A DNA stretch of 64,000 nucleotides from Hallerella porci. GTDB lineage: Bacteria; Fibrobacterota; Fibrobacteria; Fibrobacterales; Fibrobacteraceae. This document shows, piece by piece, positions 2,247 to 39,184 of this stretch (position 1 is its first letter; the number at the start of each line of letters is the position of its first letter). The stretch lies in assembly GCF_003148885.1 (NCBI RefSeq), contig NZ_QGHD01000006.1, forward strand, positions 62,001 to 126,000. The letters are read 5' to 3'. Position numbers and translations under genes: made by a program. Under the pieces are notes generated by a model. That model was given only the letters and a program-made list of their open reading frames with translations, was not told where the DNA came from and ran no database searches.

Positions 2247-4202
2247 ATGGCTTATATCGCAATGGCACGCAAATGGCGGCCGAAATCGTTCAACGATTTG
2301 GTCGGTCAAGAGCATATTGCAAAGACGATCGAAAATGCAATTTCGGGCGGACGTTTGCATCACGCATTTCTCTTTACGGGAACGCGCGGCGTGGGTAAAA
2401 CGACATCGGCTCGTATTCTTGCGCGGACATTAAATTGCACGGGCGGAAATCCGCTAGTTCCTTGTGGCAAATGCAAAAGCTGCTTGGACATCGAAAGCGG
2501 TCATCCGATGGATGTGATTGAAATCGATGCAGCTTCTAATACTGGCGTAGACAATATCCGCGATCTCTTGGAACAAACGCAGTACACGCCGATGATCGGC
2601 AAGTACAAAGTTTTCGTCATCGACGAAGTGCACATGCTTTCGAAGGGAGCGTTTAATGCGCTTTTGAAAACTCTCGAAGAACCGCCTCCGCATGTGATTT
2701 TCATCTTTGCGACGACCGAAGTCAATAAAGTTCCGCAGACGATTCTTTCTCGTGTGCAACGTTTTGATTTCAAACGCCTTTCGACAAAGCAAATCACCGG
2801 TCGCTTAAAATATATCTGCGAGCAAGAAGGCATTTCAACCGACGCTGAAGCTCTCGGGATGATCGCCGAAAAAGCGGACGGTTCGATGCGCGATGCGCTC
2901 ACGTTCTTTGATCAGGCTTACGCATTTACCGGAAACGATATGAACGCCGAATCGGTGCGTTCTGTTCTCGGAATTCCGCCAAACGAATTGTATTTTTCTC
3001 TTCTCGAATCCATTGAAAATCACGATATCAAAGGAACATTTGCTGTCATCGAAAAAGCTTCGGAAACGGGAGTGGAATTTGCGCCACTTCTCGATGGATT
3101 TGCCAAATTTATCCGCAATAAATTATACGTTAAAGTCGGCGGTATTTCGGCGGAATCTCTCAACATTTCGGATGCGCTTTTCGGAAAATTGGAAAGCGCT
3201 TCGCCCAATCTTTCAAACGGCGATTTGCTTCGAATTGCTCGCATTTTAACCGATTTGCAAGGGAACATTCGGCGCAGTGCAAATCCGCGACTTTTGGTGG
3301 AATCGGCATTTGCGCGGATGGCTTACTTAGACCGCGTTGTCGATTTGAAACGGGCCTTGGCAGCGATTAACGACCCTGCTTCTCAGGGCGCAAAAAAAAA
3401 ATTAGCTGAACCGAATTTTTCGGCTCCTGCGCCAGTTGCAGCTTCTACGCCTGCGGCGCCTTCCGCTAATTTTTCAAGTTCAACGGCGTCATTGTCTTCG
3501 AATTCACCTTCTGCGCCGGCGGATAATTCTCCGTTTGCGATTGATTTTGATGCGCCTCTCGGCGGAAATTCTTCGCCAAAAAATCCTGCGCCCGAACCGC
3601 AAACGCCGCCCGCAGAACCAGAACCGCCGATGGATGACGTGGGAATGTCTATCGATTTTGGCGGCGGCGATTTTATCCCCGAACCCGAAGAACACGCTAA
3701 TTTGGATAATTTCGGTGCAGAAATGGATGCACCGCGGCAATATACGCGCTACGATGTTTGCAATGCGTGGCAAGAATTGGTCCGCAGCAGTTTTTCGCGC
3801 GAACTCGGATTTTTTGCGACGAGCCTCAACGGCTCATATTTGGAACACGGCGATTTTAACGAAAATCCGTATCGTTTGAAAGTCGTTTATCCCGCTTCGT
3901 TTAAGTGGGGCTACGATCAAATGATGAGCCGCGAAGATTACCGCAACCGTTTGGAAACGATTCTCGAAGATCGATTGCAGACAAAAGTGGTCGTCTCGTA
4001 TGAACTTCTCGAGCCGAAGCCGGGCGAAGAAATTTCGTCAGTGCCCTTAACACCATGGGAAACCGATTTGCAAAAAGAACCGGTGCTTGCGCAATTTGCG
4101 GAACGCTTTATGGCGGAGCTCATTTCGACGCGTTCTGCGCCGCGGAATGCCGGAAACACGGACGATTGCAGCGATCAATGCGCTACGACTCCCGAAGAAT
4201 AA
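2247..4202 (+). CDS. dnaX: DNA polymerase III subunit gamma/tau
   Basis: Clamp-loader ATPase of the replisome, 651 aa. Visible are Walker A GTRGVGKT (residues 45-52), the zinc-binding cysteines C64, C73, C76 and C79, the Walker B DEVH (126-129) and the ATTE sensor region (155-158), followed by the lid and oligomerisation domains to about residue 370. A low-complexity Ala/Ser/Pro-rich linker (about 390-480) and a tau-type C-terminal domain follow. The linker starts with an A10 tract in codons 382-385. Slippage there would stop translation within three codons and give a short gamma-like protein. The preceding AGAAG stretch is a weak ribosome-binding site. ybaB follows 30 nt later, the usual dnaX-ybaB order. 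Confidence 0.96.
   Translation: MAYIAMARKWRPKSFNDLVGQEHIAKTIENAISGGRLHHAFLFTGTRGVGKTTSARILARTLNCTGGNPLVPCGKCKSCLDIESGHPMDVIEIDAASNTGVDNIRDLLEQTQYTPMIGKYKVFVIDEVHMLSKGAFNALLKTLEEPPPHVIFIFATTEVNKVPQTILSRVQRFDFKRLSTKQITGRLKYICEQEGISTDAEALGMIAEKADGSMRDALTFFDQAYAFTGNDMNAESVRSVLGIPPNELYFSLLESIENHDIKGTFAVIEKASETGVEFAPLLDGFAKFIRNKLYVKVGGISAESLNISDALFGKLESASPNLSNGDLLRIARILTDLQGNIRRSANPRLLVESAFARMAYLDRVVDLKRALAAINDPASQGAKKKLAEPNFSAPAPVAASTPAAPSANFSSSTASLSSNSPSAPADNSPFAIDFDAPLGGNSSPKNPAPEPQTPPAEPEPPMDDVGMSIDFGGGDFIPEPEEHANLDNFGAEMDAPRQYTRYDVCNAWQELVRSSFSRELGFFATSLNGSYLEHGDFNENPYRLKVVYPASFKWGYDQMMSREDYRNRLETILEDRLQTKVVVSYELLEPKPGEEISSVPLTPWETDLQKEPVLAQFAERFMAELISTRSAPRNAGNTDDCSDQCATTPEE
3385..3409 (+). 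promoter_or_regulatory. candidate slippage/frameshift site in dnaX (A10)
   Basis: Ten consecutive A residues (3392-3401) span codons GCA AAA AAA AAA at the junction of the ATPase/oligomerisation part and the linker. A -1 shift reads ATT AGC TGA (stop 3407-3409); a +1 shift reads AAT TAG (stop 3403-3405). Either shift would give a protein of about 385-387 residues. An AGGG (3385-3388) lies just upstream. E. coli dnaX uses ribosomal frameshifting and Thermus dnaX uses transcriptional slippage at comparable A runs to make gamma; use of this tract here is inferred. Confidence 0.7.
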
Positions 4203-4232: not shown

Positions 4233-4544
4233 ATGAACATGCAAAAAATGTTGAAGGATTTGCAGAAAATGCAATCGAAAATGGTCAAAGCTCAAAGCGA
4301 ACTTCAAGCGCAAAGCTTTGAAGCCGAAGCGGGCGGCGGCATGGTGAAAGTCGTCTTGAATGGTCAAGGCATTATGACTTCGATTAAAATCAATCCGGAT
4401 GCAGTCGATAAAGATGACGTGGAAGCTCTCGAAGATTTGGTGATGGCTGCGGTCAATTCTGCGGTCAAGAAAAAAGATGACCAATCGAAAGCGAGCATGG
4501 AAGAATTGATTCCTGCGGGCATGAAAATCCCTGGACTTATGTAA
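4233..4544 (+). CDS. YbaB/EbfC family nucleoid-associated protein
   Basis: A 103-aa DNA-binding protein of the YbaB/EbfC family, which forms tweezer-like dimers on DNA. The N-terminal half is a Met/Lys/Gln-rich helix, followed by the family core with the GGGMVKV and ING/NGQG-type strand motifs, then a helical end. The length is typical (100-110 aa). AAGGAA precedes the ATG by 6-7 nt. It sits 30 nt behind dnaX, the conserved arrangement, although recR does not follow here. A strong hairpin terminator closes the transcript 10 nt after the stop. Confidence 0.92.
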   Translation: MNMQKMLKDLQKMQSKMVKAQSELQAQSFEAEAGGGMVKVVLNGQGIMTSIKINPDAVDKDDVEALEDLVMAAVNSAVKKKDDQSKASMEELIPAGMKIPGLM

Positions 4545-38335: not shown

Positions 38336-39184
38336 ATGCAACAAGAATTTGCGCCAGCGAAAATCAATCTTTTTTTGGATATTCTTTTGAAGCGTCCCGA
38401 TGGCTATCATAATTTAGGAACGCTTTTTCAAACAATCAACGTGGGCGACACTCTTTCGGGCGAAGTCAATTCGACGGGCGAAATCATCATGCGCTACAAT
38501 GCGCCGCAGGAATATCCCTTAGAAAAAGATCTCGTTTACAAAGCCGCAAAACTTTTGCAGCGAAAATTTTCGGTGAAAGCGGGCGCAGAATTTTACTTAG
38601 AAAAAAAAATGCCGCTCGGTGCAGGCCTTGGCGGAGGAAGCGCAGACGCTGCAGCCGCTTTCCGCTTGCTCAATCGCCTGTGGAATTTGAATCTTTCTTG
38701 CGAAGAATTGGAAAAACTCGGAACCGAAATTGGCGCTGACGTTCCGTTCTTAATCCGCGGCGGCAGTGCTTTGGCCGAGGGAATCGGAGAACGCTTAACG
38801 CATTTAGAACCGTTATCTCTTCCTTCGGGCGGAGCTCTTTTGGTTGCGACTCCGCATTGCGCAGTTCCGACGAAAGCCGCTTACGCAGGATGCATTCCTT
38901 CGGGAGAATCGCGCTGGGACGCTTATAAAAATTCACCTTTCCGCGATTTTCAGGGCGCATTTAATAAATTCGAAGAATCGGTTTTCCCGCAATTTCCGTT
39001 AATTTCAGAGATGAAAAATGACTTTTTAGAAGGCGGCGCTGCGGTCGCACTCATGTCGGGCTCGGGCGCATCGGTCTTTGGCATTTTCAAAAATCGCGCA
39101 GATGCTGAAAAAACAGCTGAGAAAATCGCCAAAAATGCGCGATTTGTCGCGGTGACCGAATTCTTTGCCGGTTTTTTTGTTTAG
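38336..39184 (+). CDS. ispE: 4-diphosphocytidyl-2-C-methyl-D-erythritol kinase
   Basis: GHMP kinase of the MEP isoprenoid pathway; 282 aa. Signatures are PAKINLFLDIL at the N-terminus, the ATP loop PLGAGLGGGSADAAAA, GADVPFLIRGG, and the C-terminal LMSGSGASVFG. There is no strong Shine-Dalgarno sequence ahead of the ATG; CGGAATAAAA is the only purine-rich stretch. The four-fold 14-bp repeat lies directly upstream and probably contains the promoter. tRNA-Gln and rplY follow on the same strand. Confidence 0.95.
   Translation: MQQEFAPAKINLFLDILLKRPDGYHNLGTLFQTINVGDTLSGEVNSTGEIIMRYNAPQEYPLEKDLVYKAAKLLQRKFSVKAGAEFYLEKKMPLGAGLGGGSADAAAAFRLLNRLWNLNLSCEELEKLGTEIGADVPFLIRGGSALAEGIGERLTHLEPLSLPSGGALLVATPHCAVPTKAAYAGCIPSGESRWDAYKNSPFRDFQGAFNKFEESVFPQFPLISEMKNDFLEGGAAVALMSGSGASVFGIFKNRADAEKTAEKIAKNARFVAVTEFFAGFFV

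Follow-up and report, generated by a model that had tools for sequence, protein, structure and literature searches.

The dnaX gene of Hallerella porci carries a run of ten A residues just behind the part that encodes the clamp-loader core of its product. This locus raises the question whether the run is a programmed slippage site, from which a single gene would give both tau and a shorter, gamma-like protein, and whether RNA polymerase or the ribosome would slip there. We analysed the gene in a stretch of 64,000 nucleotides (the window, to which all coordinates refer unless a contig is named) from a genome assembly of 78 contigs and 2.85 Mb. Fibrobacter intestinalis ATCC 43854 (NZ_FUWU01000051.1, L059/G001) belongs to the same genus, as do several MAGs from the rumen that go under the name Fibrobacter sp. 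The gene and its surroundings comprise the following features:

16-2226, upstream of dnaX: pheT-like ORF, assigned by eye
2247-4202, plus strand: dnaX, full-length tau, 651 aa, 71.4 kDa
2943-3356, plus strand: clamp-loader domain III (PF12169, residues 233-370), with no further domain between it and the tract
4056-4121, plus strand: tau C-terminal segment WETDLQKEPVLAQFAERFMAEL, whose resemblance to the segment of relatives was judged by eye
4233-4544, plus strand: ybaB/ebfC, the next gene and usual neighbour of dnaX

The product is a DnaX protein, with PF13177, PF22608 and PF12169 (AAA+ ATPase, lid and domain III) all above the cut-off and homology to the E. coli DnaX structures 1jr3 and 8gj0. 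In E. coli the tau C-terminus binds the polymerase alpha subunit, and by analogy the C-terminal segment of the window type may do the same. A segment that resembles it by eye is retained even in relatives with a short tau, where it lies only in a shifted frame. Around the junction between the core and the rest of tau we located these elements:

3371-3390, plus strand: predicted RNA stem-loop CG(A)CCCTG-CTTCT-CAGGGCG, MFE -8.7 kcal/mol, one base 5' of the A10 run
3392-3401, plus strand: candidate A10 slippage tract, codons 382-385 (GCA AAA AAA AAA)
3403-3405, plus strand: TAG of the +1 frame (which reads AAT TAG), reached with 9 or 12 A's, gamma of 385 or 386 aa
3407-3409, plus strand: TGA of the -1 frame (which reads ATT AGC TGA), reached with 11 A's, gamma of 387 aa

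The zero frame reads GCA AAA AAA AAA TTA GCT GAA across the tract, which lies 12 codons past the end of domain III at residue 370. The first-pass annotation had described a run of ten A's where the ATPase and oligomerisation part ends, with a TGA two codons after a -1 shift and a TAG one codon after a +1 shift, and all of this was recovered in the sequence. Transcripts with nine, ten, 11 and 12 A's are predicted to encode proteins of 385 aa (42.2 kDa), 651 aa (71.4 kDa), 387 aa (42.5 kDa) and 386 aa, respectively, in agreement with the size of about 385-387 residues that had been proposed for the gamma-like product.

Taken by itself and from the window gene alone, the A10 run is not striking. 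A run of at least ten A's appeared in 11% of synonymous shuffles of this AAA-rich gene (P=0.11); the same figure was 0.2% in a close relative (G005). Within the window gene, the two near stops taken as a pair have a rank of 0.003. What excludes chance is that the tract is conserved across the phylum. In the genome itself, where A runs were counted by pattern search and sampled loci (100 of the 109 A9 positions being listed), the dnaX run was the only one of 14 checked runs of at least ten A's that lies in a sense ORF of more than 110 codons. Other homopolymers were seen along the way. Besides dnaX, the window has just one sense ORF of some size with a run of at least nine A's, namely an ORF of 282 codons (38336-39181) with an A9 at 38601-38609, and 20 consecutive A's on the minus strand (G000:C15:9736-9755) lie outside any long sense ORF. 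A sense-strand run of 11 T's at G000:C19:39612-39622 (L287), about 60 codons past the start of a 335-codon ORF, is another possible slippage or phase-variable site.

We recovered 148 dnaX genes from Fibrobacterota, one of them cut by a contig end, so that the junction could be read in 147 genomes. A run of eight to 12 A's was present at the junction in 142 of these, representing 35 of the 37 readable genera; it measured exactly A10 in 114, at least A9 in 141 and A8 in a single one of the tract-bearing genomes. Among the 147, the tract was absent from five (G137, G138, G154, G164 and G165). Where a deviating length comes from a single draft genome (G059 and several MAGs), a homopolymer error could be the cause. 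In the 69 close relatives from six genera that share A10 and an in-frame tau, codons 383-385 are AAA in every case (69/69), whereas the other conserved lysine columns of dnaX are mostly AAG. The codon after the tract is likewise GTA or TTA in 69/69, and the TA of the +1 stop comes from it. In 33 of 35 genus representatives, both of the frames that do not lead to tau close within about 13 codons of the run, the exceptions being genera g2 and g4 (Fisher p=2e-21, with the representatives treated as independent and kinship ignored). No such A run was present at the junction of six DnaX genes from outside the phylum, taken from plasmid-collection records of Bacteroidota (two), Chlamydiota, Bacillota, Cyanobacteriota and E. 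coli; the E. coli record shows its own AGGGAG...AAAAAAG. Both the tract and the shifted-frame stops, on whose conservation the first-pass annotation had staked its reading, are therefore retained in relatives, and this conservation lends good support to the gamma/tau reading as a prediction from sequence.

The tract has been kept although its surroundings in the reading frame have moved. The codon phase in which the run begins is 2 in 103 genomes, 0 in 20 and 1 in 19, and the frame leading into tau is the zero frame in 119 genomes, that with one A fewer in 15 and that with one A more in eight. Length varies between species from A8 to A12, and two tau frames occur inside one genus. A DnaX core tree with 85 rows requires at least ten changes for the tau frame, 14 for the phase and 16 for the length, but only three for presence of the tract. 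Slippage at the RNA level tolerates such drift, whereas a ribosomal site working in one direction would not.

In several lineages the zero frame does not lead to tau at all. F. intestinalis ATCC 43854 has A11; its zero frame ends after 387 aa, and an additional A gives access to the tau frame, which encodes a product sharing 55% identity with residues 423-649 of the window tau. The gene is accordingly split at G001:C49:21734-23631 (L059) into a 387-aa ORF and a tau tail that is out of frame with it. In the ten genomes of genus g4 and in G006, an A9 run leads to a variable short tail, and a conserved segment, (F/Y)EkDLKENPhFADFVKYM, which by eye resembles the window C-terminal WETDLQKEPVLAQFAERF, occurs only in the frame with one A fewer. 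Variable sites in this shifted-frame tail fall on codon positions 1, 2 and 3 in the numbers 13, 8 and 19 (ten sequences, nine from g4 and that of G006), a pattern as in translated sequence. Tau is thus reachable only by slippage in F. intestinalis ATCC 43854 and in genus g4, and a frame transition is also the only route to tau in G151 and G130. Genera g28 and g21 have a very short tau that ends in a segment similar to that of g4. We also observed that the slippage-only tau tail of g4 overruns the start of ybaB, so that dnaX(tau) and ybaB share a stretch that each reads in a frame of its own (loci L079 and L091-L100, from MAGs named Candidatus Fibrimonadales/Fibrimonadaceae).

Directly upstream of the run, the predicted stem-loop of the window ranks 0.02 among the windows of its own gene and is more stable than expected under synonymous randomisation with the protein kept (p=0.007). 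We surveyed 26-nt windows ending at the tract in 65 sequence clusters. Predicted structure had a mean rank of 0.215 within the same gene, with 48% of the clusters in the lowest tenth, and formed a sharp peak of stability; windows ending 6-24 nt earlier ranked about 0.55. Synonymous randomisation gave p<0.05 at the tract in 20 of 65 clusters, compared with 1-4 of 65 at six of seven control offsets; the remaining one (+60) was also raised, with 11 of 65. Genus medians reached p<0.05 in 7 of 35 cases (1.75 expected) and p<0.1 in 13 of 35 (3.5 expected). The effect was strongest where the window ended 0-2 nt ahead of the run, and it was gone by 6 nt. Stems of different sequence stand at the same place in other lineages (ACCCTG/CAGGGT, CGCCTC/GAGGCG, CGCTTC/GAAGCG, TCCTC/GAGGA and GACCTC/GAGGTC). 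In the groups counted, pairing amounted to 82-100% and dropped when the arms were slid against each other, and a few two-sided changes were seen; the pairs of the window hairpin are kept in its genus. Some lineages, for example G142, G144, G145, G151 and G167, have a weak hairpin or none. An intrinsic terminator, which also consists of a hairpin and a run, was considered and rejected, as the coding-strand run is A rather than T and no terminator-like site was called there.

The first-pass annotation had treated transcriptional and ribosomal slippage as equally able to produce gamma. This neutrality has to be given up, since the length of the tract, the changes in its phase and in the tau frame, the hairpin on its 5' side and the lack of a Shine-Dalgarno stimulator and of an adjacent 3' hairpin together favour transcriptional slippage over an E. 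coli-type ribosomal event. In the ribosomal alternative, -1 frameshifting on A_AAA_AAA would make gamma as in E. coli dnaX and the +1 stop would be incidental. The heptamer is indeed in frame with a -1 stop two codons on, but the +1 stop is conserved as well. A_AAA_AAA is slippery too and is present in every phase of these runs; however, seven A's would do for it and the run has at least nine in 141 of 142 genomes, the tract is followed by T, so that the A_AAA_AAG heptamer with its AAG is absent, and in the 15 genomes that need one A fewer the tau frame calls for a +1 shift. Shine-Dalgarno-like tetramers occur upstream in 28 of 65 clusters, but without enrichment over the 65 clusters, and the anti-SD pairing of the window ranks 0.62. 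Structure 1-20 nt after the tract showed no excess in the 65 clusters, and no match to the Rfam dnaX element was found at E<=1. The window has a small hairpin, CCGAA-TTT-TTCGG, at 3411-3423, which is not kept in the genus. Moreover, one study reports weaker -1 frameshifting where a 5' hairpin lies right next to the site (PMC6321510), and two lysine tRNA species are present (UUU once and CUU twice, ARAGORN, among 30 of 44 tRNA loci). We consider the ribosomal alternative unlikely. Further downstream, at a distance of about 25-50 nt from the tract, structure rose weakly, above all in g6 and g14, and p<0.05 was reached by 10 of 65 clusters.

Much less probable still is the absence of any programme, where the lysine-rich start of the linker would be AAA-coded by chance and the off-frame stops would be hidden stops that end accidental slippage. 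The shuffling of the window gene (P=0.11) agrees with this explanation, but AAA in 69/69 despite the AAG bias elsewhere, the persistence of the tract through at least ten frame changes, the slippage-only tau of several lineages, the selection on the hairpin and the six DnaX genes of other phyla that lack such a run do not. A contingency locus at the DNA level, with replication slippage at A10 switching tau on and off between cells, would suit the variation from A8 to A12 between species and the two tau frames within one genus. Yet in genus g6 the run is exactly A10 and in frame in 74 of 75 genomes, and an off state makes little sense for tau, which is expected to be essential; we regard this explanation as the least probable of all.

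The tract is thus probably a programmed transcriptional slippage site, assisted by a hairpin, that gives tau and a gamma-like protein. RNA polymerase would slip on A10/T10, which is about the length of its RNA-DNA hybrid (9-10 bp according to a review, PMC5009743), and the nascent-RNA hairpin just behind the hybrid would help. In this way dnaX mRNAs with 9, 10, 11, 12 or more A's would arise; those with 10 (or 13) would yield tau, and the others would run into TAG or TGA after no more than two codons and yield a gamma-like protein of 385-387 aa, which would keep the ATPase and oligomerisation domains without the linker and the C-terminal part. Run lengths of 9-12, a tract that may start in any codon phase and a stop in either shifted frame fit slippage by RNA polymerase. 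The sequences themselves show the tract, the stops, the potential for a hairpin, the conservation of all three and the moving frame; the occurrence of slippage, its level and the production and usefulness of gamma are what we infer here. With somewhat less assurance, we lean towards an ancestral, phylum-wide slippage site stimulated by the 5' hairpin: because RNA polymerase would supply all three frames, the DNA-level frame of tau would be nearly free to drift, so that the architectures would have interconverted at least ten times, and in some lineages tau would have shrunk to a short tail reached only by slippage.

If true, slippage in dnaX would reach beyond Thermus and a few Chlorobi and take in an entire phylum, and the making of both gamma and tau would have been under long-term selection in Fibrobacterota. 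The lineages would also offer natural replicates (A8-A12, three phases and many hairpins) for the control of RNA polymerase slippage by hairpin and run length. Annotation of species like F. intestinalis is likely to present dnaX as a truncated gene or a pseudogene. No description of Fibrobacter dnaX slippage or of a 5' hairpin for dnaX slippage was found in the literature searched, outside of which most subscription journals lie, so that the evidence for novelty is weak; the parts that would be new to a specialist are the 5' hairpin and the frame drift. A survey of two-ORF dnaX genes included one Fibrobacteres genome, and its main text names no Fibrobacter dnaX case (PMC3711429); its method, as described there, misses one-ORF dnaX, so that such a gene would escape it.

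Several known systems resemble the site. As in E. coli dnaX, gamma and tau are predicted to come from one gene by a shift at A's just after the core, but the E. coli gene has A_AAA_AAG, an upstream Shine-Dalgarno sequence and a 3' stem-loop, none of which the window dnaX shares. The two-ORF dnaX genes of Chlorobi and others (PMC3711429) likewise have a poly(A) run, mostly A10, at the junction, and their tau by frame transition recurs in F. intestinalis, G151, G130 and g4; unlike them, the window tau is in frame, and both architectures exist here within one genus. A stem-loop directly 5' of the run, the feature of hairpin-stimulated slippage of the IS630/IS1447 type, is found in the window, with a putative role. 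In Roseiflexus IS630, a nascent hairpin adjacent to the run on its 5' side has been documented to stimulate slippage by RNA polymerase (PMC5009743), and in IS1447 an A9 run follows a stem-loop, with slippage in both directions of about 16% each (PMC6211511). These are transposase genes whose long product needs slippage, unlike the window tau. The closest likeness is to Thermus thermophilus dnaX. Stops in both directions, which the first-pass annotation had taken for a departure from Thermus, have been described for both non-zero frames there (PMC5009743, PMC1088944), so that they are a shared trait. In the window dnaX we found at least nine A's in frame after the clamp-loader core (A10, 3392-3401) and near stops in both non-zero frames, and we file it, as a candidate, under the Thermus type of slippage, which is further marked by mRNAs of heterogeneous length and a gamma to tau ratio near 1:1. 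Both genes have a sense-strand poly(A) after the core, tau in the zero frame, close stops in the two other frames and two lysine tRNA species, a condition that has been connected with Thermus (PMC5009743). The window dnaX differs from that of T. thermophilus, which has A9, in its A10 and in a predicted gamma that ends soon after domain III, and the 5' hairpin may be a further difference; and in Fibrobacterota, where slippage is predicted from the sequence, the tract is conserved over the phylum with a drifting frame.
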